Source: Bacteroidales bacterium CF
GTDB lineage: Bacteria > Bacteroidota > Bacteroidia > Bacteroidales > UBA932
Reading direction: 5' to 3'
Assembly: GCA_000473305.1 (NCBI GenBank)
Contig: CP006772.1
Span: forward strand, 372,001-436,000
Length of the DNA: 64,000 nucleotides
Part shown: positions 49,829 through 64,000 of the stretch, one piece after another
Position numbering within the stretch: position 1 is the stretch's first letter
How the letters are laid out: each line of letters starts with the position of its first letter
Made by a program: the position numbers and the translations under genes
Notes under the pieces: model-generated
Told to the model about the DNA's origin: nothing
Seen by the model: the letters and a program-made list of their open reading frames with translations, nothing else
Database searches by the model: none

Positions 49829-50704
49829 TTATTGATAACCGTTGGTTGTGCTCTCGGGCAGGATTTTCTTAATCATGTTCTGAAGGACATTGCCGGGACC
49901 GAGTTCAATAAACTCCCTTCCTCCGTCACTCCATATGTTTTCTACAGATTGTCTCCATCTTACAGGAGCTGTCAATTGCAGGATAAGATTCCTCTTAATC
50001 TCATCGGGACAAGTATGAGGTTGAGCATCTACATTTTGATAAATCGGGCAGATAGGTTTGCTGAACACGGTTGAGTCAATTGCTGCAGCGAGCTCCTGTC
50101 TTGCCGGTTCCATGAGTGGAGAGTGGAAAGCTCCGCCAACCGCCAGTATGATAGCTCTCTTTGCGCCGGCAGCCTTAAGCGATTCACAAGCCTGGTTAAT
50201 AGCAGAAAGAGAACCGGAAATAACAAGCTGCCCAATTGTGTTATAGTTTGCAGGGACTACCACTCCGGGTGTCTCAGCGCAGACTTTCTCTACTGTTGCA
50301 TCATCAAGTCCCAGTATTGCAGCCATCGTTGATGGTTCAATCTCACATGCCTTCTGCATTGCTTTAGCTCTTGCAGAAACAAGACGCAGTCCGTCTTCGA
50401 AACTTAATGCCTTTGCCGCAACGAGAGCTGAAAACTCGCCGAGCGAGTGACCGGCAACCATTTGCGGGCTAAAATCATTGTGGCAGATTGATAGTATAAC
50501 AGAGTGGATAAAAATTGCAGGTTGAGTCACCTTTGTTTGTTTGAGCTCCTCGTCACTCCCCTCGAACATTGTATCTGTTATGCGGAATCCGAGGATGTCA
50601 TCAGCTTTCTCAAAGAGTTCTCTGGCTTGAGGATATGAGTTGTAAAGCCCCTTTCCCATACCACTGAACTGTGCCCCTTGACCGGGGAAAACAAATGCTT
50701 TCAT
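49829..50704 (-). CDS. fabD: Malonyl-CoA:ACP transacylase
   Basis: 291 residues from ATG 50704 (MKAFVFPGQGAQFSGMG); eight codons open upstream are unlikely to be used. FPGQGAQ and GHSLGEFSAL (catalytic Ser near 90, oxyanion His/Arg in SARAKAMQ) are family motifs; AVGGAFHSPLM holds the catalytic His near 195. It loads malonyl groups on ACP for fatty acid synthesis. Isolated from other fab genes; a TATCTTTG box precedes it. Confidence 0.95.
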   Translation of the reverse strand: MKAFVFPGQGAQFSGMGKGLYNSYPQARELFEKADDILGFRITDTMFEGSDEELKQTKVTQPAIFIHSVILSICHNDFSPQMVAGHSLGEFSALVAAKALSFEDGLRLVSARAKAMQKACEIEPSTMAAILGLDDATVEKVCAETPGVVVPANYNTIGQLVISGSLSAINQACESLKAAGAKRAIILAVGGAFHSPLMEPARQELAAAIDSTVFSKPICPIYQNVDAQPHTCPDEIKRNLILQLTAPVRWRQSVENIWSDGGREFIELGPGNVLQNMIKKILPESTTNGYQ

Positions 50705-50725
50705 ATGATATAAAATATTAAGCAG

Positions 50726-50733
50726 CAAAGATA
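50726..50733 (-). promoter_or_regulatory. Promoter -7 box of fabD
   Basis: Reads TATCTTTG on the minus strand, 21 bases before the start codon. No clear -33 box. Confidence 0.55.
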
Positions 50734-50758
50734 CATTTTTTAATCAATATTAAAATTG

Positions 50759-50766
50759 TACCTTTG
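50759..50766 (+). promoter_or_regulatory. Promoter -7 box of tRNA-Arg
   Basis: TACCTTTG, 13 bases before the tRNA; it faces away from the fabD box 25 bases to the left. Confidence 0.5.
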
Positions 50767-50779
50767 CTGCTCAATACAA

Positions 50780-50853
50780 GGCCTAGTAGTTCAGTTGAAT
50801 AGAACGTCAGATTCCGGTTCTGAAAGTCGGGGGTTTGAATCCCTCCTAGGTCA
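50780..50853 (+). tRNA. tRNA-Arg (anticodon CCG)
   Basis: 74 bases. Acceptor GGCCTAG/CTAGGTC, D-stem GTTC/GAAC, anticodon stem TCAGA/TCTGA with loop TTCCGGT, so anticodon CCG reading CGG. T-stem GGGGG/CCCTC with one G-T. Discriminator A. CCA not encoded. Confidence 0.93.
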
Positions 50854-51172
50854 CTGCAATTTGCTCAAAATTAAGCTCTTTAATCAAGGGGCGATAATTC
50901 AAAGACTATAACTTTTCGGTTGTACGGAGATTCCCTGTTTTCGGAGTCTCCTGTTTGCTGCTACCCCAAACATTTGAATCTTAGAACATTGAATTCAATA
51001 CGACCAATAAGCCACAGTATGAATAAGAACTTAAATCCTGTTAAAATAAAATTACTTGATTTGCCAATCACATAATAGATGCACGAGGCAGATGTTTCGT
51101 TGCATCAAAAAAGGGAAAATTTTTAAAATTTTCCCTTTTAAGTCTTTTTATCGATTTCTAAAAAGCCTGTGA
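50854..51172. other. Non-coding gap, tRNA-Arg to carboxyltransferase gene
   Basis: 319 bases without a convincing reading frame. It holds small hairpins: GGAGA/TCTCC near 50926-50950 and GATGCACGA/TCGTTGCATC at 51079-51106, then the strong terminator at 51109-51139. Confidence 0.6.
51109..51139. terminator. Terminator of the carboxyltransferase gene
   Basis: A 15-bp perfect inverted repeat with a one-base centre (AAAAGGGAAAATTTT, 51109-51123, and 51125-51139). The A/T ends make it work on both strands; the minus-strand gene ends 34 bases away. Confidence 0.8.
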
Positions 51173-52954
51173 TTACTCAACAAAAGCAATTATCTCACCT
51201 TTTTGTACTGTCTCTCCGTGTTTTGCGCAGATTGCAACAATCTTGCCTTCAAAGGCAGGCTTGATCTCTTCAAGTCCGTAAAAAGCCTGAACAAAGCACA
51301 TCGGCTTGTTAGCCTCAACCTTTTCACCTATGTTTGGAGCAGATGATTTGTCGATAATATCGTATTGCCAGATAAGTTGTCCTTTAACTGTTGACTGTAC
51401 AGGTTTTGCATTAGGGTTGGCTGCTATGATCTTCTCAACGTCAACCTTAGGCATTTCAACTACAGGTCTTGTAATTACTATAGGAGCATTTGCCTTTGCC
51501 TTGGCAGCCTCAAGCTCTGCTGTGAAACGTTGTTTGGCAACACCGCTCTTGTAGTCACGATACTGTCTTTCGTGCATTGCAAACTCGAACAATTCCTCTT
51601 CGTCCTCTCCGAGATCCCAGTTGTTCTCCTTCATCTCTTTCCTGAAGCGGTCCAGTTCATTAGGGAATGCATCCTGTGGATTTCCATTGTAGAACTCCAT
51701 TCCTTTCTCTTTAGCAAGCTGTATGATCTCAGGTGCAAGTTCGCCCGGAAGCTTACCGGTCTTGCCGAGAATCATGTTCCATGTATCTTTGTCAATGGTT
51801 GACCATCTTGGTTCTCCCTTGAGCGTATGCATCAGGTTCATGAGAGCTGTATTCTTCACATACTGGCTGAATGGAGTAACTAAAGGAGGGTAGCCGAGTC
51901 TAGGCCATACATACTCAACCTCCTGGAAGAGCATTACAACCAGCTCGTCAAGTTTGAGCTCTTTTTTGCCCTGGTTTCTTAGAGATGAGTTTATAGCGCC
52001 GTGGAAGCCCTTCAGGTCTGCCATCATTGATCCCATCATACCTCCGGGAAGGCCGCAACCTACAAGAAGAGAGGTGCTGACTTTGTTGCTCGGATCCATG
52101 AAATATCCGAGGTAGTCATCCATGAATGATTGAGTAAGACTTCTTGCCTCCATGTAAGCGTCCATGTTGATATCCTTAACAAGGAAACCTGCATCTTTAA
52201 GCATTGCCTGAATAGTTATCACGTCCGGGTGAACCATGCCCCATGCGATAGGCTCCATGGCAACGTCAATGTAGTCAGCACCTGCGCGGGCAACTTCAAG
52301 CATTGAAGCAACTGAGAAACCGGGACCGCTGTGACCGTGATATTCAACAACGATATGCGGATATTTATCCTTTATTGCTTTTGTAAGTCTTCCGAGGAAT
52401 GCAGGACGGCCAATACCGGCCATATCCTTAAGACAAATCTCATCAGCTCCGAATGCAACAACCTTGTCAACAAGGCTCATGTAATATTCAACAGTGTGAA
52501 CAGGAGAGGATGTGATACTCAGCGCAATCTGTGATATCATACCGCCTTTCTTCGCATACTTTGCAGAAAGCTCAAGGTTTCTTGGGTCATTCAGACCGCA
52601 GAAGGAGCGGGAAATGTTTGTTCCCTGTTTTGCCTTAACTTTGTACATGAGTTCGCGAACGTCAGCCGGCACCGGATTCATACGCAGTGCATTAAGACCT
52701 CTTTCGAGCATGTGGGTCTGAATACCCACTTTGTTGAAAGGTGCTGTCCATTCTCTTACGGCCTTGTTTGGATTTTCTCCAAAAAGAAGGTTTACCTGTT
52801 CAAAAGCACCACCGTTTGTTTCAACGCGGTCGAAGCAACCCATGTCAATAATGACAGGAGCAATCTGTTTTAACTGGTGAACCATCGGAACATATTTTCC
52901 TGATGATTGCCACATGTCTCTGTATAACAGAGAGAATTTAATTTCGCGAGCCAT
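51173..52954 (-). CDS. OadA/PycB-like carboxyltransferase subunit with atypical biotinyl domain
   Basis: 593 residues. Residues 1-300 are the DRE-TIM-like carboxyltransferase barrel (SLLYRDMWQSSGKYVP, ETNGGAFEQVN, SFCGLNDPRN, CLKDMAGIGRP, VEYHGHSGPGFSVASM), with a PycA/OadA conserved region to about 460. A linker (APIVITRPVVEMPKVD) leads to a biotinyl/lipoyl-type domain (510-593). Where biotin carriers have (E)AMKM, this one reads CFVQAFYGLEEIKPA, with no lysine at the turn. It may decarboxylate or transfer CO2 using a separate biotin protein. No such protein or membrane subunits (OadB/G) are adjacent. Confidence 0.85.
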   Translation of the reverse strand: MAREIKFSLLYRDMWQSSGKYVPMVHQLKQIAPVIIDMGCFDRVETNGGAFEQVNLLFGENPNKAVREWTAPFNKVGIQTHMLERGLNALRMNPVPADVRELMYKVKAKQGTNISRSFCGLNDPRNLELSAKYAKKGGMISQIALSITSSPVHTVEYYMSLVDKVVAFGADEICLKDMAGIGRPAFLGRLTKAIKDKYPHIVVEYHGHSGPGFSVASMLEVARAGADYIDVAMEPIAWGMVHPDVITIQAMLKDAGFLVKDINMDAYMEARSLTQSFMDDYLGYFMDPSNKVSTSLLVGCGLPGGMMGSMMADLKGFHGAINSSLRNQGKKELKLDELVVMLFQEVEYVWPRLGYPPLVTPFSQYVKNTALMNLMHTLKGEPRWSTIDKDTWNMILGKTGKLPGELAPEIIQLAKEKGMEFYNGNPQDAFPNELDRFRKEMKENNWDLGEDEEELFEFAMHERQYRDYKSGVAKQRFTAELEAAKAKANAPIVITRPVVEMPKVDVEKIIAANPNAKPVQSTVKGQLIWQYDIIDKSSAPNIGEKVEANKPMCFVQAFYGLEEIKPAFEGKIVAICAKHGETVQKGEIIAFVE

Positions 52955-52991
52955 ATATCATTAATTTAATCTTATAAACAACTTTGGACCG

Positions 52992-52999
52992 CAAAAGTA
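52992..52999 (-). promoter_or_regulatory. Promoter -7 box of the carboxyltransferase gene
   Basis: TACTTTTG on the minus strand, 38 bases before the start codon. Confidence 0.5.
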
Positions 53000-53076
53000 A
53001 GAAATATTTGCAGAATATAGGTATCGAATTGAAACATTTTGCTTAAGAATCGAAATCTTTATTTTTTTTGAGACTA

Positions 53077-53110
53077 TTTGTGTTTTTATTGAAAAAAATC
53101 ACTACTTTTG
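53077..53110 (+). promoter_or_regulatory. Promoter of tRNA-His
   Basis: TTTG (53077-53080) and TACTTTTG (53103-53110), 22 bases apart, 23 bases before the tRNA. Confidence 0.6.
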
Positions 53111-53133
53111 CAGCCCGATTTGTTCGGAATTAT

Positions 53134-53208
53134 GGTGGTTGTAGCTCAGTTGGTTAGAGCACTAGTTTGTGGCACTAGGGGTCGTGGGTTCGAATCCCAT
53201 CTTCCACC
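53134..53208 (+). tRNA. tRNA-His (anticodon GTG), acceptor stem with two T-T mismatches
   Basis: Includes the extra 5' G (53134) paired with C73 (53208), typical of tRNA-His. D-stem GCTC/GAGC, anticodon stem CTAGT/ACTAG with loop TTGTGGC, T-stem GTGGG/CCCAT. The acceptor arms are GTGGTTG and CTTCCAC: positions 5-68 and 6-67 are T against T. The gene is followed two bases later by a nested hairpin cluster. Confidence 0.85.
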
Positions 53209-53209
53209 C

Positions 53210-53340
53210 AAAGAAAAAGCCGGCGCAGAAAAGCGCCGGTTTTTTTATTGCCCCTCTGCCAAGCTTGCTTGAGCAGAGAAGGGCAATAAAAAACATCCGA
53301 CAGGCGGAATCCCTAACGCCTGTCGGAAGGCTTTTTCTTT
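53210..53340. repeat. Nested palindrome cluster after tRNA-His (REP-like, includes terminator)
   Basis: An outer 12-bp stem (AAAGAAAAAGCC, 53210-53221, with 53329-53340) encloses three hairpins: 53220-53239 (7 bp, terminator), 53242-53292 (12 bp plus inner CTCTGC/GCAGAG), and 53297-53326 (10 bp, CCGACAGGCG). The second hairpin is centred on the shared core GCCAAGCTTGCTTGAGCAG (53258-53276). Confidence 0.8.
53220..53246 (+). terminator. Terminator of tRNA-His
   Basis: CCGGCGC pairs with GCGCCGG around AGAAAA, followed by seven T residues. Confidence 0.85.
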
Positions 53341-53364
53341 GAAGGGCCCCCGCCCGGGGGTTCG

Positions 53365-53387
53365 CACTTTGGCGCAGTTTGAGGTAA
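53365..53387. repeat. Left arm of a 23-bp perfect inverted repeat
   Basis: Starts CACTTTGGCGCAG, ends GAGGTAA. The exact reverse complement lies at 53471-53493 and includes the stop codon of the transposase gene. Between the arms are 83 AT-rich bases. Confidence 0.85.
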
Positions 53388-53470
53388 ATGTCAGATATTG
53401 AATGTGTTAAAAATCGATAACTTTTGAGTTTTAAAAGAAGTCAAAATATAAACAACAAACATTTAGGTAC

Positions 53471-53493
53471 TTACCTCAAACTGCGCCAAAGTG
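53471..53493. repeat. Right arm of the 23-bp inverted repeat, overlapping the transposase stop
   Basis: Perfect complement of 53365-53387. The first three bases are the transposase stop codon, so the arm encodes its last residues. Confidence 0.85.
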
Positions 53494-54274
53494 TCCTTCT
53501 CACAAACTCATAACTTTCATGTGTAACCGATGCGATTTGTCTGTAAGAAGCTCCTGATTCTTTTCTCAAAGAGATAATCAGCTCTTCCATCTCACCTTCG
53601 CTGATCTGAAATATATTCCGTCCTTTCAGTAAAGTATTTAGACATTTGATTACAAATCCGTCAGTTACACGAGTCCAGATATCATGTCTTTTATCTCTTA
53701 TATCATCAAGATCAGATTTGTAATACATTATTGCTTGATCTAATGATTTTCTGTTAGGATAAATTTTTGTTAAGAATTCAGTGTCAATTTTAATATACTT
53801 TCTTAAAGGATTCTTGTTGTTTAAATGAAAGTGATAGGAGCTCCATAAATATTCAGACGGGCACTTACACATACCTGACTTAATAGGGTTATTTAAAATA
53901 TATAGGATACTATTCTCTATCCATTTGTCAGAATGTTTGCATGCACTGCTAAAGGGTGTCTTGAACAATTTGTCTGATAGACCATTCTTCCTGTTATACC
54001 ATTGAACATAACCCTTTAACAGGTCACTTACAAAGTTCGTCAGGTTGTTTGTTACTAATTGTAGATGCACATGGTTATCCATTAATACAAATGCAAGTAT
54101 CTTTGTATCATACTTATACGCCACATTGTTGCATCTGATTAGAAATTCAATACGATCCCTGTCATCGTAGAAAACATTATACCTGCAGTTCCCTCTCAAA
54201 TAAACATGAATATTTCCCGACTGAATGCGAGCTTTTCTCCCGAATACTTTTTTCTTCCCTTCCATCTCTTTCAC
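53471..54274 (-). CDS. REP-associated tyrosine transposase (RAYT, Y1 HUH family)
   Basis: 267 residues. The HUH metal motif is DNHVHLQ with His68 and His70, and YVQWYNRKNGLSDKLFKTPFSSACKHSDKWIE contains the catalytic tyrosine (probably Tyr93) and the conserved downstream block. NIHVYLRGNCRYNVFYDDRDRIEFL is the typical N-terminal strand. Residues 215-267 form a DnaA-C/HTH-like tail (SGASYRQIASVTHESYEFVRR) usual in this branch. Such proteins cut and join single-stranded DNA at REP hairpins and are normally single-copy domesticated genes rather than mobile IS elements. REP-like hairpins with a shared core lie on both sides, supporting the assignment. Confidence 0.9.
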   Translation of the reverse strand: MKEMEGKKKVFGRKARIQSGNIHVYLRGNCRYNVFYDDRDRIEFLIRCNNVAYKYDTKILAFVLMDNHVHLQLVTNNLTNFVSDLLKGYVQWYNRKNGLSDKLFKTPFSSACKHSDKWIENSILYILNNPIKSGMCKCPSEYLWSSYHFHLNNKNPLRKYIKIDTEFLTKIYPNRKSLDQAIMYYKSDLDDIRDKRHDIWTRVTDGFVIKCLNTLLKGRNIFQISEGEMEELIISLRKESGASYRQIASVTHESYEFVRRTLWRSLR

Positions 54275-54386
54275 TAATTGTACATAAAGTTAAATCAATT
54301 TTTATTGATTAACAAAGCCGAGTATAAGCCTAAGACAATAAAAATGACCATTTAAGCTAAATTCCTGGTGTCTTACGTCAGCAAGA

Positions 54387-54425
54387 CAACCCACCCCGCC
54401 AAGCTTGCTTGAGCAGCGAAGGTTG
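54387..54425. repeat. Second REP-like hairpin, shares a 19-base core with 53258-53276
   Basis: Core GCCAAGCTTGCTTGAGCAG at 54398-54416, in the same orientation as the first copy, then xGAAGG. Outer stem CAACC/GGTTG (54387-54391, 54421-54425) and inner CGC/GCG. Lies 113 bases outside the transposase start. Confidence 0.8.
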
Positions 54426-54452
54426 CCATGAGATTCCATCTAGACCTTCCAA

Positions 54453-54806
54453 CTACCAATTACGGAAAATATCAATCTCCTCAGGACTCAAAGCTGCACC
54501 AGGATTACTTTTAATAAATCCTTTAGGAGGCATGCCGCCCTTAGAAACCTCCTGATAGCATTTTTGAGCAAGTTTCACCTGTTTTTCGTATGAGTAACTT
54601 TGCCATTTGTCAAAGTTTACCTTCATCTTGGCCATTCCGTTGCCCTTGTCAGAGTGGCAGGCAACACAGCTTCGGTTGATTATCTGACTCACATCTTTAG
54701 TAAGAGCTTTCCCCTTTTCCTGTTGTTGAGCAGAAATTATAAAACCATAGAACAAACAAAAAATGAGAGTAAAAACACCGGTCAAAAGAAAATTTTTCAT
54801 ATTCAT
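54453..54806 (-). CDS. Small exported haem-binding (cytochrome c-like) protein
   Basis: 117 residues with signal peptide (about 1-27, ending ISAQQ). One c-type haem site CVACHSDKG (Cys near 51, 54, His 55) and a probable Met ligand in GGMPPKGF. The pattern fits the haem-binding domain family found in Bacteroidetes. It would carry electrons or sense redox/gas in the periplasm. It lies downstream of no other respiratory gene. Confidence 0.8.
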   Translation of the reverse strand: MNMKNFLLTGVFTLIFCLFYGFIISAQQQEKGKALTKDVSQIINRSCVACHSDKGNGMAKMKVNFDKWQSYSYEKQVKLAQKCYQEVSKGGMPPKGFIKSNPGAALSPEEIDIFRNW

Positions 54807-54892
54807 ACAATGTTTAGAGAGGTTTTATATAAAGATAAAAAAAAAGTTGGCCAAAATGACCAACTTCTCGCTTAAAACCAGATGGATTTAAT

Positions 54893-55555
54893 TTATTTCA
54901 CATACTTCTTTATCGCATCTCTCCAAATCAAATAAGCCTCTCCGGAAAGGTGCAACCCGTCTTTGGTGTATTTAGGGTCTAGCTCGTCACTGTCCTTACA
55001 TTTGAAAAGAGGATAAAGATTTATGAATGTTATACCCTTTTCATTGCACATCTTCTCAATCATTGAATTGTAAAGTTTAATCTCTTCACCTCTTGTTCTG
55101 TGTTTAGGATAATTGGTAAAGGTGCTGTTGACAGGAAGTCCGCTCTGTATATAAAGTTTTGTTGTAGGGCACTCTTTTGTAAGTTTGTCCACAATCTTCA
55201 CAAGCCCCCTGTATGTAGAATCAACGGTATAATCTCTTGATAGATTGTTTACCCCTATCATCAAAAAAATCTTTTTAGGTTGCCCCTCGATTATCGGGTC
55301 AAGCCTGTCGTAGACACCTTGCACTATGTCCCCGCTTATACCGCGGTTCTTGATGTGACTGTCATTGAATAACTCAGCCCATTCGCAGTAATGTATTATG
55401 CTGTTGCCAAGAAAGACAATATCTGATTTCTCGATAGGAAGCACCTCAAAAAGTGATGCCCGGTGGTAGTAAAGAGGGGTGTATTTAGCCTCTTGTCCCC
55501 ACATCATGCAAGCCATGCCAATTATCATGGTTGCGGTCAATAATATTTTTTTCAT
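54893..55555 (-). CDS. Secreted SGNH/GDSL-family hydrolase
   Basis: 220 residues with signal peptide (about 1-20). SGNH blocks: FLGNSIIHYCEW (block I, Ser near 53), GISGDIVQGV (Gly block), IGVNNLS (Asn block), and DGLHLSGEAYLIWRDAI (Asp/His block). These are the catalytic residues of GDSL esterases. Acts on esters of carbohydrates or lipids; related Bacteroidetes proteins include sialate or acetylxylan esterases. Substrate unknown. Confidence 0.9.
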   Translation of the reverse strand: MKKILLTATMIIGMACMMWGQEAKYTPLYYHRASLFEVLPIEKSDIVFLGNSIIHYCEWAELFNDSHIKNRGISGDIVQGVYDRLDPIIEGQPKKIFLMIGVNNLSRDYTVDSTYRGLVKIVDKLTKECPTTKLYIQSGLPVNSTFTNYPKHRTRGEEIKLYNSMIEKMCNEKGITFINLYPLFKCKDSDELDPKYTKDGLHLSGEAYLIWRDAIKKYVK

Positions 55556-55585
55556 TTGTATATGTTGAAGTTAAACTTTTATATA

Positions 55586-56110
55586 TCAGTATATCAGATA
55601 TCCTGCTAATCCGGCAAGAATTATAATATATATTGGATTTACTTTGCCCCACTGCGTTATAGCAAAAGCCGCACCAAATATTAACCAGCTAGTCCAGTCA
55701 ATAAAGTTTTCTTCAGTAACCAACAGAGTTGCTGCAGCACCTATCAATCCAAGAACCACAGGCTTAATTCCTGACAATGCAGCATCAAACCATTTATTTT
55801 TTTTGAACTGAGTATAAAGGAAAGCTATCAGAAAAATTATTATAAACGAAGGCAGCGAAACAGCAAAGGTTGCTATTGCTGAGCCGAAGGCATTTCCTGT
55901 TACTGAATATCCTACATATGTGGCGCTGTTGATGCCGATAGGGCCGGGTGTCATTTGAGATATCGCAATCATGTCTGTAAAACTTGAAGCATCAACCCAC
56001 TGATGTTTGACCACAACTTCATTCTGTATCAGGGAAATCATTGCATACCCTCCACCAAAGGTGAAAAGACCAATCTTGAAGAATGTTATGAAGAGCTGAA
56101 TGTAGATCAT
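55586..56110 (-). CDS. Chromate transporter-family (CHR) half-protein 2
   Basis: 174 residues, six or so membrane segments. Contains FTFGGGYAMISLIQNEVVVKHQW near residue 16 and AISQMTPGPIGINSATYVGY near 48, both CHR signatures. Half-size CHR proteins act as heterodimers; the partner is the upstream gene, with which it shares an ATGA start-stop overlap. Substrate may be chromate/sulfate or another anion. Confidence 0.9.
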   Translation of the reverse strand: MIYIQLFITFFKIGLFTFGGGYAMISLIQNEVVVKHQWVDASSFTDMIAISQMTPGPIGINSATYVGYSVTGNAFGSAIATFAVSLPSFIIIFLIAFLYTQFKKNKWFDAALSGIKPVVLGLIGAAATLLVTEENFIDWTSWLIFGAAFAITQWGKVNPIYIIILAGLAGYLIY

Positions 56111-56643
56111 CTTTTAATTAAATAATGGTAGAAGATTCCTAATAGGGCACCTGCTATAAGGATGTAAATCGGAGATATCCGGAAAGCAACTATTAGCAGG
56201 AGAGTGATTACCGGTATCAAAGAGGTGTACCTGTTAAGATTCATCCCTTTTGACATACCTATAAGTGGAACGGCAATCAAAGCCACAACAGCCGGTCTAA
56301 TACCCTTAAAGACACTTTGTACAACCTCATTATCCTTAAATGAGTCGAAAAACATTGCAATCAGGAGTATTGCAACAAACGACGGCAATGCACTTCCTAA
56401 GGCAGCAATGACGCTTCCGCCCTTGCCTTTAACCCGAAGACCGATAAAAACAGACATATTAATAACAAATACTCCGGGAGCAGATTGGGAAATGGCAAGG
56501 ACATCCAGAAACTCCTTTTCGTCAAGCCACTTCTTTTTGTTGACAACCTCCGACTTTATCAGGGGTAGCATAGCATATCCTCCACCGATTGTGAATGCCC
56601 CGATTTTGGCAAAAGTGGAAAATATATCAAGGTAAATATTCAT
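56107..56643 (-). CDS. Chromate transporter-family (CHR) half-protein 1
   Basis: 178 residues from ATG 56643 (MNIYLDIFSTFAKIGAFTIGGGYAM). Seven extra codons upstream are unlikely since the partner starts at the equivalent place. FTIGGGYAMLPLIKSEVVNKKKW and ISQSAPGVFVINMSVFIGLRV correspond to the same motifs as the partner, in the opposite-topology copy. Together the two form the anion transporter. Confidence 0.9.
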   Translation of the reverse strand: MNIYLDIFSTFAKIGAFTIGGGYAMLPLIKSEVVNKKKWLDEKEFLDVLAISQSAPGVFVINMSVFIGLRVKGKGGSVIAALGSALPSFVAILLIAMFFDSFKDNEVVQSVFKGIRPAVVALIAVPLIGMSKGMNLNRYTSLIPVITLLLIVAFRISPIYILIAGALLGIFYHYLIKR

Positions 56644-56827
56644 AACAATACAAAAATAGCTCAATTTTCATTGAGCCTGAAAAAAATCATTCCCAAGTAG
56701 CAGTATGATGTTGATTTGATAGATTATGTAACCCGTGAGAATGACGCCAATCAGGAATTGGTAATTCTTAAAGTAAAAGGGGTGCTTTAATTTTGAATGA
56801 AATTTTATAAATTTTTAGAAGAATAAT

Positions 56828-56858
56828 TTTGTAAGATAAAAAAAGTCGCATATCTTTG
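56828..56858 (+). promoter_or_regulatory. Promoter of the 16S rRNA gene
   Basis: TTTG (56828-56831) and TATCTTTG (56851-56858), exactly 19 bases apart, about 137 bases before the mature 16S start. Confidence 0.8.
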
Positions 56859-56896
56859 CAGCCCGTTTCGAAAATGAAACGCTGAATAGAAAGTTC

Positions 56897-56925
56897 TTTG
56901 ATAGCATTTATAAAGAGTAATAAGG
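56897..56925 (+). other. Left arm of the 16S precursor processing stalk
   Basis: TTTGATAGCAT (56897-56907) and GAGTAATAAGG (56915-56925) are complementary to ATGCTATCAAA (58555-58565) and CCTTATTACTC (58544-58554), 22 bp with a seven-base bulge. The stalk encloses the whole 16S gene. Confidence 0.85.
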
Positions 56926-56994
56926 TAGAGGTTTTTTTAAAATCTCGTCAACAAAAATCTTAGTTGGGACAAGCTAAAAGTTTAAAAAATTTTT

Positions 56995-58518
<1,524 letters not shown>

Positions 58519-58574
58519 TTGGAGCTGTACCAACTAAAGTTGGCCTTATTACTCATGCTATCAAATTCTTATAT

Positions 58575-58648
58575 AGTCCCGTAGCTCAGTTGGTTAGAGC
58601 ACTACACTGATAATGTAGGGGTCAGCGGTTCAACTCCGCTCGGGACTA
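58575..58648 (+). tRNA. tRNA-Ile (anticodon GAT)
   Basis: 74 bases. Acceptor AGTCCCG/CGGGACT, anticodon stem CTACA/TGTAG with loop CTGATAA (GAT), T-stem AGCGG/CCGCT. It lies 56 bases after the 16S gene, the usual ITS position. Confidence 0.95.
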
Positions 58649-58650
58649 CT

Positions 58651-58671
58651 AAAAAAGTTCTTTAACATTAG
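58651..58671 (+). promoter_or_regulatory. boxA-like antitermination motif after tRNA-Ile
   Basis: GTTCTTTAACATTA (58657-58670) resembles boxA (TGCTCTTTAACA) and the GTTCTTTGA upstream of the 16S gene. In normal operons this lies before the 23S gene. Confidence 0.55.
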
Positions 58672-58679
58672 AATTAGTC

Positions 58680-58761
58680 GGGAATTAATGCTTCACTTCG
58701 TTCCGCATTGAATTCATTTTGCAAATGCGAGGGAATTAATGCTTCACTTCGTTCCGCATTG
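58680..58761. repeat. Two copies of a 31-bp direct repeat
   Basis: GGGAATTAATGCTTCACTTC (first 20 of 31 bases) is repeated exactly at 58680-58710 and 58731-58761, 51 bases apart. The 20-base gap plus CGCATT/AATGCG can form a hairpin. Confidence 0.85.
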
Positions 58762-58801
58762 TTTCCCCTCTCGTTCGGCAAAGTAACAAGAGAGCAAAAG
58801 A

Positions 58802-58886
58802 AAATAAATGCTAAAGCATTTATTTAAAATTTCTCAGATTTATAGAAATTAAGCAAGCTTATTTCTATAAAATCTTCGAAATTTTA
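58802..58886. repeat. AT-rich hairpins in the rRNA spacer
   Basis: AAATAAATGC/GCATTTATTT (58802-58825) and a long imperfect stem from TAAAATTTC to GAAATTTTA (about 58825-58886) with the apex AAGCAAGCTT (58851-58860), which is the reverse complement of AAGCTTGCTT in the REP-like cores at 53-54 kb. Confidence 0.6.
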
Positions 58887-58919
58887 GACTTCGTCTCTTT
58901 TTCTTTTGGAAAACAGTGT

Positions 58920-58927
58920 TATCTTTG
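58920..58927 (+). promoter_or_regulatory. Promoter -7 box of tRNA-Ala
   Basis: TATCTTTG, 13 bases before the tRNA, the same distance as at tRNA-Arg. No -33 box at the right spacing. Confidence 0.55.
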
Positions 58928-58940
58928 CACTCTCTAACCC

Positions 58941-59014
58941 GGGGAATTAGCTCAGTTGGCTAGAGCACCTGCTTTGCAAGCAGGGGGTCAAGGGTTCGAC
59001 TCCCTTATTCTCCA
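58941..59014 (+). tRNA. tRNA-Ala (anticodon TGC)
   Basis: Acceptor GGGGAAT/ATTCTCC, D-stem GCTC/GAGC, anticodon stem CCTGC/GCAGG with loop TTTGCAA, T-stem AAGGG/CCCTT, discriminator A. Confidence 0.95.
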
Positions 59015-59015
59015 C

Positions 59016-59051
59016 AAAAAAGCTCGTCTAAATTTTAGACGAGCTTTTTTA
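59016..59051. terminator. Terminator after tRNA-Ala
   Basis: A 26-bp perfect palindrome (59021-59046, beginning AGCTCGTCTAAAA) with A-run before and T-run after. It can serve tRNA-Ala and, on the other strand, the M48 gene. Confidence 0.9.
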
Positions 59052-59130
59052 TTTTTAGTTAAATTTAGTGGCACTGATTTTTGCATTTGTTTGGTAATCT
59101 CATGAATGTACGTAAGTAATATATAGTCAG

Positions 59131-59943
59131 TCACTTAGAAAAATCTGTGCCACTAAATTTAGCAGCTTCCGGCAAGACTGATTTTATATACTGGATTCTG
59201 TTTTCATCAGAAGGGTGAGTGCTGATGAATTCAGGTTGTTTGGAGCCGGTAGAACTCATTGTTTCCCAGAACTTAGGGGCGACATTGATGTCGTATCCGG
59301 CCATGGCCATAATGATAAGGCCGAGACGGTCTGCCTCATACTCATGCTTTCTTGAATAGGGGAGAAGGACTCCGAGTTGCGACCCTAGTCCGTAAGCCAG
59401 TCCGAATACCGCCTGTGTCTTCTGGTTCTCTGTGCCGATGTATGAGGAGACAGCCTGTCCGACAGCTCCTACAAGAACCTCCTGGCTCATTCTTTCGTTT
59501 CCGTGTTTTGCAAGAGCATGGGCAATTTCGTGCCCCATAACAACGGCAACTAGATCCGGAGTGTTGGTTATTTTCATGATTCCTTCATAGAAAACTATGT
59601 TGCCGTTTGGCAGACAAAATGCGTTTACAGCCTCATCCTTAAAGACCTCAAATTTCCAGTTCAGCCCTTCAAGAGCACTTTCCCAGCCGTTTTGCCTGCA
59701 ATATTTTGAAACGGCACCGGTGAGTCTCACGCCCACATCATTTACCATTTTGTTGTACTTTGCGTTATCTGTCGGCTTTGCTTTCGTTTTCAATTCGGTA
59801 TATGCCTGATTGCTTAGAGATGTTATATCTCCCTGACTGTAAAGAAGAATCTGTTTCCTGCCGGTAATCATTACCTGTCCGCATGAACTGAGAATCAAAG
59901 AGAGCATGAGAGTGGAAACAATAAGATTAAATTTTAGTTTCAT
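59131..59943 (-). CDS. M48-family metallopeptidase lipoprotein (LoiP/YggG-like)
   Basis: 270 residues. Lipobox LILSSCGQ (Cys21). TGRKQILLYSQGDITSLSNQAY and VGVRLTGAVSKYC precede the motif VVMGHEIAHALAKHGNERMSQ with HEIAH near 140; the third ligand Glu is in RKHEYEADRLGLIIMAMAGY near 210. FISTHPSDENRIQYIK ends the fold. A periplasmic zinc protease of the Oma1/YggG type, used for envelope quality control. Complete, single gene. Confidence 0.92.
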   Translation of the reverse strand: MKLKFNLIVSTLMLSLILSSCGQVMITGRKQILLYSQGDITSLSNQAYTELKTKAKPTDNAKYNKMVNDVGVRLTGAVSKYCRQNGWESALEGLNWKFEVFKDEAVNAFCLPNGNIVFYEGIMKITNTPDLVAVVMGHEIAHALAKHGNERMSQEVLVGAVGQAVSSYIGTENQKTQAVFGLAYGLGSQLGVLLPYSRKHEYEADRLGLIIMAMAGYDINVAPKFWETMSSTGSKQPEFISTHPSDENRIQYIKSVLPEAAKFSGTDFSK

Positions 59944-59977
59944 GGCAATTAAAATCTATATATTATGCAAATATACC

Positions 59978-60898
59978 TTAAAATATATAGAGTACAGAGA
60001 GGGCAGAGACGACAGAAATGAAAATCCATAATAAAAGACCCTGTACCAATGGTTTTAGACCCGTTGATACTACCATTTCACGCGTAAGGCTTGCACCTAT
60101 CAGAAACAGGGTGATCTTCAATCCCGTTTTTGAGACGTCTACTATATATGGCGATAGAGTTTGTAATGCCGGAATTGTTGAGTTTAGAACTGTTGCTCCG
60201 ACGAAAAAGAGAATAAACCAGGGAATTTTTATCTTTTTACTCTCGCTATTGAAAAGAAAAACAGTAAATAGTGAGAGGGGAATAATCCAAAGCGCTCTTA
60301 CAAGTTTGATTGTAGTTGCTGTCTGAAGGGCTTCATTCCCATATTTGCTCGCTGCTCCCACAACAGAACTTGTGTCGTGAATTGCTATAGCAGCCCATGT
60401 CCCGAATTCATGCTGGGAAAGGCCCAGAAACTTCCCGATTACAGGGAAGATCAAGAGTGCCAAAGAGTTAAGAATGAATATTGTTCCAAGAGCCGTCCCG
60501 GTTTGTCTGTCATCCGGTTTTATAACGGACGCTATTGCTGCTATGGCACTTCCCCCGCAGATTGCCGTTCCGGATGAGATAAGATAGGAGCTCTTTTTGT
60601 CTACTTTAAGAAATCTACCGATTAAAAGACCGGCACAAAGTGTAACAGTGATAGAAAAGAGTGTATAGACAAACCCCTCTTTCCCGGCTACCAGAGCCTG
60701 AGATGCATTCATTCCGAATCCAAGGCCTACAACAGAAATCTTAAGGAGTTTGTTTGTGATGATTTTCCCGGTTTCCGGGAAAGGGTGTTTGAAGAGCCAT
60801 GTCAATGCGATTCCCATCAGAAGGGCTATCGGGGTATCAATAAACGGCATGGTGCAAAGGAGAATTGCAAAAATGAAAATAAATCTGCGAGCGTTCAT
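59978..60898 (-). CDS. YeiH-family putative sulfate/anion exporter
   Basis: 306 residues from ATG 60898 (MNARRFIFIFAILLCTMPF); eight codons open upstream are probably untranslated. About nine or ten membrane segments, with GTAICGGSAIAAIASVIKPDDRQTGTAL, FGTWAAIAIHDTSSVVGAA and GLGFGMNASQALVAG, which are the conserved blocks of the family. E. coli YeiH is linked with LysR-type YeiE; here a LysR gene lies directly upstream in the same direction. Confidence 0.9.
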   Translation of the reverse strand: MNARRFIFIFAILLCTMPFIDTPIALLMGIALTWLFKHPFPETGKIITNKLLKISVVGLGFGMNASQALVAGKEGFVYTLFSITVTLCAGLLIGRFLKVDKKSSYLISSGTAICGGSAIAAIASVIKPDDRQTGTALGTIFILNSLALLIFPVIGKFLGLSQHEFGTWAAIAIHDTSSVVGAASKYGNEALQTATTIKLVRALWIIPLSLFTVFLFNSESKKIKIPWFILFFVGATVLNSTIPALQTLSPYIVDVSKTGLKITLFLIGASLTREMVVSTGLKPLVQGLLLWIFISVVSALSVLYIF

Positions 60899-60968
60899 TA
60901 CATTTGGTATTTGAAGCCACAAAAGTATTTTAATATGAGCGCATTGTCAAATTGATAATTTTAATGGC

Positions 60969-61868
60969 CTATAACTGTATGTTATAGTGTTTTTCCACAT
61001 AATTGAAAAACAGCTTTGTAACTCCGGCAGGTTCTCCTCCCTGCGGCATGATAAAGTAGAAATGACGTGTAAATTGCAGTCTTGGAGTTCTAATGATCCG
61101 GAAAATCCCCTTTGCAAGTTCTCTCTCAATGGCGAATTTTGAAACAACTCCTGCTCCCTGGCCGTTTTCGATGAAAGACTTGATACTCTCTGTGCTTCCA
61201 AGATACATGGCTATGTTCAGTTTCTTGAGAGTGATGCCCCTGTTTTGAATTATCTTTCCAATTATGTCAAGAGTGCCGGAGCCCCTCTCTCTCAGTACAA
61301 GCGGAATATTGCAGAACTCCTCATTGCTGACCTCCTCAGGAATCTCCTTGTTTGAACAGGAGGTGAAGACAAGAAGTTCATCGTTGAGAAAAGGGGTGTA
61401 ATGAATATCAGGATTGGAGGGTTTGCCCTCAACTATACCGAGCTCAATTTCACCTTTAAGTGCCTTTTTCTCAATATACTCCGTATTTCCGGAAATCATT
61501 GAAAGTTTTATGCCGGGATATTTCTTTATAAAACCGGCAAGTGCGGGAGGAATGACATATTGTGCAATAGTTGTGCTTGCACCGATGCGAAACACCCCCT
61601 CTGCGTTGCCCTTAAGCTGGCTGATTTCAAATTTGGCCTCGTTGTGTAAAGCGAGAATCTGGGTTGCATAAGACAAAAGAAGCTCTCCTGCGGGAGTGAG
61701 GAATGTTTTATTTCCGACGCGGTCAAAGAGTCTGACCTCTAATTCCGATTCCAGCTCCTTGATATGTCTTGTGACTGCAGGCTGAGTAATAAACATCTCC
61801 TCTGATGCTTTTGTGAAGCTCAGCTTTGTTGCAACTGACAGAAAGACCTGAAGTCGGAAATCAAGCAT
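60969..61868 (-). CDS. LysR-family transcriptional regulator
   Basis: 299 residues. Winged helix at residues 1-60 (QVFLSVATKLSFTKASEEMFITQPAVTRHIKELESELEVRLFDR), then the periplasmic-binding-like effector domain (90-295, FRIGASTTIAQYVIPPALAGF). CysB/CysL-like in shape. The 70-base gap to the anion permease gene suggests that it controls that gene; the reading direction is the same, unlike the divergent pair in E. coli. It lies 7 bases after the unknown lipoprotein. Confidence 0.92.
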   Translation of the reverse strand: MLDFRLQVFLSVATKLSFTKASEEMFITQPAVTRHIKELESELEVRLFDRVGNKTFLTPAGELLLSYATQILALHNEAKFEISQLKGNAEGVFRIGASTTIAQYVIPPALAGFIKKYPGIKLSMISGNTEYIEKKALKGEIELGIVEGKPSNPDIHYTPFLNDELLVFTSCSNKEIPEEVSNEEFCNIPLVLRERGSGTLDIIGKIIQNRGITLKKLNIAMYLGSTESIKSFIENGQGAGVVSKFAIERELAKGIFRIIRTPRLQFTRHFYFIMPQGGEPAGVTKLFFNYVEKHYNIQL

Positions 61869-61875
61869 TTAAGGA

Positions 61876-62424
61876 TTACTCTTTTAATTTGCCGTCTCTT
61901 GCCATGACGGTGAGGATTTTGCTGTTATTACGATTGTCCGGGATTACACTATTATTAGTGACAGTTCCTAACTTGATAGCCAGTTCTCCTGAGAATTCTC
62001 CCATAATAGGGTCGGTGTATACCCAATTACACAAGCTTGAGAAATGTGCCGGCCAGAAGTATCCGGTGTAGATAAGATATCTGTCTACTACAACACCAAA
62101 TGCAAGACCGCCTACAGGGACTTGAAGTTTTGATAATTTCCTCTTTCCCTCCTCTGTAAGGCCGAAAGTGTAAGTGCTCTTATTGTAATAGGTGATGTCT
62201 GAATATTTGATTAATGGGGTTGGCAACAAAACGACTGTGGAATCGATAATCTGTTCGCCGGAGCTGATTTTGTAGCTCTTCAGCAAATATATCTCAACAA
62301 CAAAGTTGAATTTTTCATGTTCACTACATGCAGTGCATCCTCCACTCACAGCAGGATTCTTCTCACAGCTTGCAAGAGTGAATGCTGTAAATGCAAATAG
62401 TGCTATTGTGATTAATCTTTTCAA
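61876..62424 (-). CDS. Lipoprotein of unknown function
   Basis: 182 residues. Lipobox TLASCEKN (Cys20), then a CTAC pair (GGCTACSEHEKF). Beta-rich body with TYYNKSTYTFGLTEEGKRKLSKLQVPVGGLAFGVVVDRYLIYTGYFWPAHFSSLCNWVYTDPIMGEF. No known domain. Located just before the LysR gene (7 bases), so probably cotranscribed with it and the permease. Confidence 0.7.
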   Translation of the reverse strand: MKRLITIALFAFTAFTLASCEKNPAVSGGCTACSEHEKFNFVVEIYLLKSYKISSGEQIIDSTVVLLPTPLIKYSDITYYNKSTYTFGLTEEGKRKLSKLQVPVGGLAFGVVVDRYLIYTGYFWPAHFSSLCNWVYTDPIMGEFSGELAIKLGTVTNNSVIPDNRNNSKILTVMARDGKLKE

Positions 62425-62561
62425 GACCTGATTGTTTTTTTAGAATCGACAAATTTCCTATGTCTTTCAAAGCTAATAAATTATTCAACACAATGTTGTC
62501 TTCTATGATAATTTTCAACCACATAAAAGGAAAAGCGCGGTGGTTGTGAAAAGATTGAATG

Positions 62562-63485
62562 TCAGAGTTCCAGCATGCGTTTGATAGGAATCCAGGCTCT
62601 GTCGCGGATTTCAGCAGGAACTTTGATCTCCGGGCCTTCGCTCTCCAATGCCTTAAGGACCTTTTCGAGAGTTGCCTTTTTCATGTGACCACAAACGGCT
62701 TTTGAGTTGATTGGTATGAACTCTTTGCCCGGAATGGTTTTCTGCATATGGTGGATGATCTCCTTCTCTGTTGCAATTATGAACTGTTTCTTATCTGACT
62801 TTGCAGCATGTTTTACCATACCGCTTGTAGAGTAAAAATAGGCATTAGGCATATTGAGAATCTCTTCGTCTCCTGAACAGCTACTTTCGGGATGTATCAG
62901 AATATCTGCCTCCGGATATAATGCAGCCATCTCTTTTACCATCTGAGAGTTAAAGCGGTCATGTACGCAGCAGTCGCCAAACCATAACTCCATATTCCTG
63001 CCGGTCTTGATGTTGATATATTTGCCCAGATGTCTGTCAGGTACAAAGAGTATTTTCTTGTCTGCAGGGATTGATTCTACAACCTTCAACGCATTGGCAG
63101 AGGTGCAACAAATGTCAGTATGTGCCTTTACCTCGGCAGTAGTGTTTACGTAGGCGACCACAACACCGTCCGGATTCGCTGCCTTCCACTCTGCAAGATC
63201 CTCTCCTGTTATACTCTCGGCAAGAGAGCAACCTGCGGCCGGATCAGGAACAATGACCTTTTTGTCCGGAGAGATAATTGAGGCGGTCTCTGCCATGAAA
63301 TTTACACCGCAGAAAAGAATGATTCCGGCATCGGTTTTCCCGGCCTCTTGTGACAAACCTAGCGAATCACCCAGAAAATCACAGATGTCCTGAATTTCCG
63401 GATTTGTATAATAGTGGGCAAGTATAACGGCGTTTTTCTCCTTTTTCAGTTGAAGTATACGCTCTATTATCTCTTTCTTATCCAT
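62562..63485 (-). CDS. nadA: Quinolinate synthase
   Basis: 307 residues from ATG 63485 (MDKKEIIERILQLKKEKNAVILAHYY). A start at 63509 would overlap nadC. It has a 4Fe-4S cluster with Cys in the conserved places (CCTSANALKV, ESSCSGDEEIL, AVCGHMKKAT). HYYTNPEIQDICDFLGDSLGLSQEA is the iminoaspartate/DHAP site. It condenses iminoaspartate with dihydroxyacetone phosphate to quinolinate, on the path to NAD. Seven bases after nadC. Confidence 0.96.
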   Translation of the reverse strand: MDKKEIIERILQLKKEKNAVILAHYYTNPEIQDICDFLGDSLGLSQEAGKTDAGIILFCGVNFMAETASIISPDKKVIVPDPAAGCSLAESITGEDLAEWKAANPDGVVVAYVNTTAEVKAHTDICCTSANALKVVESIPADKKILFVPDRHLGKYINIKTGRNMELWFGDCCVHDRFNSQMVKEMAALYPEADILIHPESSCSGDEEILNMPNAYFYSTSGMVKHAAKSDKKQFIIATEKEIIHHMQKTIPGKEFIPINSKAVCGHMKKATLEKVLKALESEGPEIKVPAEIRDRAWIPIKRMLEL

Positions 63486-63492
63486 GAAAAAT

Positions 63493-64000
63493 CTATTTGT
63501 TTGGTACAATGTTCATGCTTATATCCAAAGCTGTAACGGAGTGTGTGAGAGCACCGACGCTTATGTAGTCCACACCAGTGGCCGCAACCTCCTTCAATCT
63601 CCGGACGTTCATGTTGCCTGAGGCTTCTGTCTCCGCTCTTCTGTCAATAACTTTAACAGCTTCAGCCATGGCTTCATTGCTCATGTTATCAAGCATAATT
63701 ATATCTGCTCCTGCAGCGAGAGCTTCTCTTGTCTCATTCAGGTCGGTTACCTCCACCTCAATCTTTATCCCTGCCTGAATTGAGGCCCTTACCTGTTTGA
63801 CGGCATTGGTGATTCCACCCGCAACCTTAATATGGTTATCCTTTATAAGGGCCATATCGTAAAGTCCCATACGGTGATTTGTCGCGCCACCGGCCTTTAC
63901 AGCCATCTTGTCAAGCAATCTCATCCCCGGAGCAGTCTTGCGTGTGTCGAGCAATCTGGTCTTAGTGCCTTCAAGTTCCTTTACAAAGATTGCTGTGGCA
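63493..64000 (-). CDS. nadC: Nicotinate-nucleotide pyrophosphorylase (partial, runs off the window end)
   Basis: The frame is open to the last base; the visible part begins ATAIFVKELEGTKTR then LLDTRKTAPGMRLLDKMAVKAGGATNHRMGLYD. It includes KDNHIKVAGG, VEVEVTDLNETREALAAGADIIMLDNM and GVDYISVGALTHSVTALDISM, the QPRTase active site. The gene converts quinolinate and PRPP to nicotinate mononucleotide. The 5' part (about the first 105-110 residues) lies beyond position 64000. Operon with nadA. Confidence 0.95.
   Translation of the reverse strand, partial: ATAIFVKELEGTKTRLLDTRKTAPGMRLLDKMAVKAGGATNHRMGLYDMALIKDNHIKVAGGITNAVKQVRASIQAGIKIEVEVTDLNETREALAAGADIIMLDNMSNEAMAEAVKVIDRRAETEASGNMNVRRLKEVAATGVDYISVGALTHSVTALDISMNIVPNK

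Follow-up and report, generated by a model that had tools for sequence, protein, structure and literature searches.

The stretch of DNA analyzed here, referred to as the window, comprises 64,000 nucleotides of the genome of Bacteroidales bacterium CF. Among its features are a tRNA-His gene, a cloverleaf-like structure directly behind it, a repeat unit with two inverted arms, and a gene for a RAYT-like Y1 HUH transposase (Table 1). The transposase gene adjoins one such unit, whose first arm is formed by the final codons of the gene.

Table 1. Features at the transposase locus and the nearby family B unit, with positions in the window (a dot marks a feature given without strand)
Feature	Position	Strand	Remarks
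tRNA-His(GTG)	53135..53209	+	
Cloverleaf-like structure	53210..53341	+	Outer stem and three hairpins; separate from the RAYT system
Repeat unit A	53365..53493	.	Two inverted arms and interior
Arm A, inverted partner	53365..53387	+	Exact over 23 nt; arms 83 nt apart
Arm A, copy overlapping RAYT 3' end	53471..53493	-	Encodes LWRSLR and stop (residues 262-267)
RAYT-like Y1 HUH transposase	53471..54274	-	267 aa from GTG; 264 aa from ATG at 54265
Hairpin 2 with second 19-mer	54385..54430	.	Between cytochrome-c-like gene and RAYT
Family B unit	59068..59153	.	Arms 59068-59086 (+) and 59135-59153 (-)

The earlier note read the product of this gene as a Y1 HUH protein, and a match to Y1_Tnp (PF01797; 29.6 bits versus a cut-off of 23) bears this out; the NCBIfam equivalog NF047646 reaches 42.9 bits, under its cut-off of 80. 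The HUH motif is NHVH (H68/H70) and the Y motif is YILNNP (tyrosine Y125), with LFKTPF in place of the WQ motif. H68, H70, and Y125 are conserved without exception across the 29 aligned homologues. The predicted model (mean pLDDT, 87.2) has TnpAREP 4er8 as its best structural match (Z 16.0, rmsd 2.8, 148 residues), followed by IS608 (Z 11.0), and 4er8 is also the sole PDB sequence match of the protein. This structural comparison spans residues 5-182 and is silent on the tail outside it, where the predicted model and the alignment place a C-terminal helical domain with a helix-turn-helix (about residues 205-266) that is missing from the 165-residue 4er8 chain. When tails were scanned against Pfam, 3 of 10 homologous tails lay above the cut-offs (HTH_3, HTH_7, HTH_23, or Sigma70_r4), and the tail encoded in the window matched HTH_58 alone (E 0.0022, below its cut-off). 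As modeled, the protein joins a TnpAREP fold to a predicted helix-turn-helix at its C-terminus; its relatives include TIRYT-type homologues. No near-identical whole-element copies of the IS200/IS605 style are among the matches listed for the genome: of four matches there, three are listed, namely the gene itself and two others with 38% and 46% identity.

Overlooked in the earlier note was a 23-nt inverted repeat, made up of the final 23 nt of the RAYT gene (stop codon included) and an inverted partner downstream, together with its copies elsewhere in the genome. Allowing up to 3 mismatches, the 23-nt arm (arm A) occurs at 17 genome places (reversed control, 0) and its 21-nt core at 21. Ten inverted pairs form units that span 124-137 nt when measured with 21-nt arms. 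Eight of the 10 units lie wholly outside ORFs of at least 120 aa; the other two enter the RAYT gene itself (22 nt) and a 237-aa ORF (60 nt). As a single strand, unit A of the window folds as a long hairpin (-33.3 kcal/mol, DNA parameters), and folding arm A alone, or arm B of the second family described below, gives no hairpin. The GT[AG]G foot of published REPs is missing from arm A. The window RAYT has its unit downstream, and no arm A unit lies upstream of it.

The layout recurs among relatives. A RAYT homologue was detected in 75 of 149 genomes of the family, and 40 loci were taken from the best 41 matches listed, some of them partial (G089:C22 was omitted). De novo repeats around these 40 loci frequently follow the order unit, gene, unit, with the first arm at or after the stop codon. 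Flank and unit tests covered 39 of the loci (L111 has no flank), with control ORFs chosen mechanically from the same repeat-rich loci and cleared of duplicates in the unit test alone (183 remaining). A repeat common to both flanks was present at 24 of 39 RAYT loci versus 8 of 184 control ORFs, or at 23 of 38 once the window's own locus, where the hit is a 19-mer discussed below, is set aside. An initial inverted-repeat test (score of at least 14) gave 20 of 40 RAYT loci and 20 of 203 controls; because that version required no long spacer and picked up short hairpins as well, the test was redone with spacers of 40-130 nt. A unit then lay beside the gene, on either side, at 23 of 39 RAYT loci versus 20 of 183 controls, and on both sides at 13 of 39 versus 2 of 183. 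No unit was found beside the gene at the remaining 16 loci, including L084, the best match beyond the window's own genome among the homologue matches listed. Of 17 downstream units, 11 reach into the gene with their first arm, two of them by the stop codon only; counted back from the last base of the stop codon, the arm starts 21 nt away at L085 and 22 nt away at L095 (23 nt in the window), and its letters differ. Arm similarity tracks protein similarity (r = 0.74; 0 of 5000 permutations; n = 23), a correlation that includes shared ancestry, and one private arm family has 29 places in G003 and none in 11 other genomes.

Different RAYTs within the same genome likewise carry different arms. The second RAYT (L104) has a different arm, B, in its 3' end, which begins GTGG and forms units with GTGG...CCAC ends. 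Arm B occurs at 97 genome places with up to 3 mismatches (reversed control, 1); at no more than 1 mismatch it has 70 places here and 40 in a sister genome, and 23 further members of the genus have none. Yet another arm, C, belongs to a third homologue, L119, and recurs at L101, L103, L106, and L107; it has 10 places in this genome and is present in 7 of 25 genus genomes. Tandem repeats inside the reading frame were seen in the RAYT genes of L119, L121, and L107.

Given these data, we consider it likely that the window encodes a TnpAREP-fold RAYT with a helix-turn-helix and holds its cognate repeat, a unit of ~124-137 nt with ~22-nt inverted arms and a variable interior. Weighing against this reading are the 16 loci that lack a unit, the downstream-only unit of the window RAYT, the missing GT[AG]G foot of arm A and the failure of arms A and B to form hairpins, the NF047646 score, and, as described below, the arm A copies in G030 and G048 and the want of a clean empty site. 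Sequence comparison establishes that the repeats form a family, come in pairs, and lie mostly outside genes, that arm families match RAYT lineages, and that many related genes have the same layout. The protein would bind the arms via the helix-turn-helix (as duplex), via the HUH pocket (as single-stranded arms), or both, and Y125 would nick arm DNA when a unit becomes exposed as a single strand, as might happen on the lagging strand. Units could thereby be copied or moved into intergenic sites while the transposase gene would remain at one site, kept by selection. Since neither arm A nor arm B folds by itself, what is recognized may be the complete unit in its long-hairpin form or duplex DNA held by the tail.

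It is rather unlikely, in our estimate, that the protein is instead a domesticated DNA-binding regulator whose helix-turn-helix reads the arms, the repeats serving as binding sites or as structures at mRNA 3' ends, with little or no transposition occurring now. The predicted tail and the lack of an own hairpin in arms A and B would suit such a regulator, as would purifying selection on the RAYT gene (dN/dS of 0.11 versus the sister genome G157). Unit A is present at the equivalent locus of G157 (L132). At three comparable sites both genomes have an A unit, which also favors a regulator and suggests that the A family may be old and slow. Against a regulator stand the catalytic residues, invariant in all 29 aligned homologues, and copy numbers that differ strongly between near relatives. 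Arm A has 21 places in the genome of the window (G000), 8 in G157, 11 in G030 (reversed control, 1), and 7, some of them weak, in G048; single places occur in G010, G111, G154, and G161 (three of the four at 3 mismatches), and none in 17 other genomes. Furthermore, G157 lacks a 5.6-kb block that in G000 contains three A units, which counts against a regulator and, together with the copy numbers, suggests turnover of units. The comparison of G000 with G157 gave no cleanly empty A-unit site, so that we can only infer mobility of the units. In G157, G030, and G048, 5 of 8 inspected A units lie outside ORFs. Among the matches listed, no RAYT of G030 or G048 carries arm A, and the copies there may therefore be orphans. 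We also observed that dS of the RAYT versus G157 (L132) is 0.24, below the 0.42-0.87 of its neighbors, making gene exchange possible, and that in G157 an ORF resembling an IS110-type transposase by eye (L135:6767-7768) adjoins a shortened A unit.

A further alternative to a RAYT acting on its own repeat is that the units are miniature elements (MITEs) of an unrelated transposase, one of which simply happened to insert at the RAYT gene. Being short and ending in inverted arms, the units do resemble MITEs, and family B is often found at ORF ends: in a sample of 30 of the 97 arms, all exact, 9 lay no more than 60 nt from the stop of an ORF versus 7 of 120 control positions, and 17 of the 30 lay outside ORFs versus 13 of 120. 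We nevertheless regard this origin as very unlikely, since the arms vary from one RAYT to another and often lie on either side of the gene, the arm families follow RAYT lineages, and a search that was not systematic tied no other transposase to the units. Several B arms (positions 1501-1519 of their loci) give new ends to ORFs of L033, L041, L048, and others, reading GTDFSK or GTDFSN in one frame and, in another frame, WH followed by a stop. Within the window, the family B unit overlaps the 3' end of an ORF at 59131-59943 (metalloprotease-like by eye), and its second arm supplies the C-terminus SGTDFSK of that ORF. Arms also become new C-terminal tails of host genes.

The overlap at the RAYT gene itself invites a more specific reading of the RAYT and its cognate repeat. 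The final seven codons (LWRSLR and stop) are arm A, and they close the last helix of the predicted helix-turn-helix, LWRSLR being the second half of that helix. Arm A would then encode the end of the RAYT's own DNA-reading helix, locking reader and substrate together. We think this unlikely, and the 3' overlap is less special because family B favors gene ends generally. If the lock were true, an arm change would alter the reader, and new RAYT/repeat pairs would be possible in one step.

More distant relatives connect the protein to a published group. Our scan of genome contigs gave only distant homologues, at 80 loci. Two alignments were made: A2, in which the window protein and those of 28 loci bring the total to 29, and A3, with the window and 29 of the 80 loci. 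In a tree with a midpoint root and an unsettled bootstrap, the RAYTs of the family group together (100/100) versus homologues from other phyla. The distant set for flank analysis comprised 66 of the 80 loci (14 were excluded by hand, mostly near contig ends), of which 65 were testable; a repeat common to both flanks was present at 42 of these 65 versus 11 of 281 controls. GGG[AT]C[AG]G was on both flanks at 43 of 65 loci, and the exact published GGGGWSAS, described in print as common to some TIRs, at 15 of 65. Neither motif was on both flanks at any of the 39 loci of the window's family. These shared flank repeats and the GGG[AT]C[AG]G motif in the distant homologues tie the RAYT protein, through sequence resemblance, to the published TIRYT group.

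Published systems are compared here as they appear in excerpts of the cited papers. The TIRYT/TIRtron group and TnpAY1 subclass 2.1 share with the window RAYT a Y1 HUH domain with a C-terminal helix-turn-helix (PMC3733652, PMC6006769), and the inverted repeats on either side of TIRYT genes belong to moderately abundant families (PMC3733652); a 3' overlap is marked (3'ov) in figure legends of the same paper. Unlike TIRYT as excerpted, many loci of the window's family have complete two-arm units, on both sides at the 13 of 39 given above, and unlike subclass 2.1, for which Y[IV]HLNP and YIELNP are printed in the excerpt of PMC6006769, the Y motif here is YILNNP. Subclass 2.4 of TnpAY1 (Bacteroidetes and Cyanobacteria), known to us by description in that paper, fits in its motifs, YIxNNP and NH[IFV]H, and in having in-frame repeats within the gene; the GTGG...CCAC ends of family B also resemble its "double foot" type (PMC6006769). 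However, the insertions described there are generally between HUH and Y, where the window has an arm at the 3' end, and the window RAYT differs from the 2.4 description in its lack of a WQ motif and in its helix-turn-helix tail. The subclass of the window RAYT is unsettled, as YILNNP fits the printed 2.4 motif while the TIRYT tie stands. The REPtron/REPIN systems of gammaproteobacterial RAYTs, as excerpted, are alike in pairing one RAYT with its own repeat family, in flanking the gene with it, and in arranging repeats as inverted, mostly intergenic pairs (PMC8266576, PMC6006769; see also PMC3116915). They are unlike the A family in that arm A has neither the GT[AG]G foot nor its own hairpin and the arms are wider apart (83 nt).

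RAYT, REPIN, and TIRtron are thus already known; the apparent novelty is a clade of RAYTs with helix-turn-helix tails, many of which have a two-arm family to themselves, with several lineages per genome. No description of such a clade or its families was found in the titles and abstract openings of the open literature, subscription papers and preprints aside. Experimental RAYT/REP work, as represented in the excerpt of PMC8266576, is on Gammaproteobacteria, and PMC10878065 mentions RAYT and Bacteroides. Whether the helix-turn-helix class has repeats is a question posed in the excerpt of PMC6006769, on which our observations bear. In the genus and family of the window, RAYTs with helix-turn-helix tails are numerous, and the many that have their own repeat family make natural pairs in which to study how an HUH enzyme selects its repeat.

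The repeat first proposed for this gene was a different one. The earlier note described a RAYT/REP layout with the gene flanked by hairpins that share a 19-base core; the layout stands insofar as a RAYT-like Y1 gene has scattered, paired, mostly extragenic repeats, and the repeat it named was wrong. The two exact copies of GCCAAGCTTGCTTGAGCAG are indeed there, at 53258-53276 and 54398-54416, both on the + strand and continuing with AGAAGG and CGAAGG, respectively. Within the window they are the only matches with up to 3 mismatches, and 100 shuffles gave none. A hairpin on each side was also claimed; the first is strong (-29.5 kcal/mol), and the second is weak on the + strand (-11.4 kcal/mol) and folds better on the - strand (-24.9 kcal/mol). 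Their apex, AAG-CTTG-CTT, we take to be a stable CUUG-type tetraloop, and its reported reversed occurrence in the rRNA spacer was recovered as the reverse complement AAGCAAGCTT in a foldable stretch at 58851-58860.

Tens of copies of the 19-mer had been hoped for from a whole-genome search, which returned just these two in the single contig of 2,657,245 bases, an outcome that the note itself had named as refuting its proposal; one further place, at 3 mismatches, is in a coding-like stretch. At the same locus of G157, where the RAYT is present, the 19-mer occurs once, and the second site has a different loop. A variant of the hairpin, CCAAGCTCGCTTGAGC, follows tRNA-His in G152 and G077 at 3,019-base loci without a RAYT by tblastn, an absence that applies to these loci, as G077 has RAYTs elsewhere. 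That the flanking 19-mers are REPs of this gene is exceedingly improbable: two exact copies in one orientation do flank it, and in the shared-flank test alone its locus scores 22 via the 19-mer, but the genome has two copies, G157 a single one despite its RAYT, and the first hairpin is part of the post-tRNA structure. The copy number, the location of copy 1, and the different copy 2 loop in G157 together lead us to conclude that the 19-mer is not the repeat of this RAYT.

Copy 1 starts 49 nt past the end of tRNA-His, in the middle hairpin of the cloverleaf-like structure, which folds at -79.5 kcal/mol. Similar structures follow tRNA-His in G157, G152, and G077 and tRNA-Ser in G089. When the five were aligned, 9 of 42 consensus pairs had both partners altered in one sequence or more, and the RNAalifold covariation term for this alignment (+0.56) gives no net support. 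A covariance model built from the five finds four places in the genome, each directly at a tRNA 3' end (His, Ser[TGA], Met[CAT], and Ser[GCT]); the window copy among them is itself a model member, and two of the four are also read on the other strand. A scan of 50000-64000 against Rfam returned 16S rRNA and four tRNAs alone above the gathering threshold, with the post-tRNA copy of the window unmatched.

Cloverleaf-like post-tRNA structures were noted at 53210-53341 and in L234, L235, L236, L124, L127, L128, L132, and L136. Those after tRNA-Ser(TGA) run on as tandem arrays, with a 128-nt period and 3.5 copies in L234 and a 134-nt period and 2.3 copies in L136 (G100). A further palindrome, roughly GGGATCACCGAGC...GCGAGGTAATCCC, lies downstream of the post-tRNA structures in several genomes (L234, L236, L126, and L132). 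In L128 (G077), a different two-arm unit, of the TTGACACTTTTCCCCTGGGG type, lies 3' of tRNA-His at the position held here by unit A and the RAYT.
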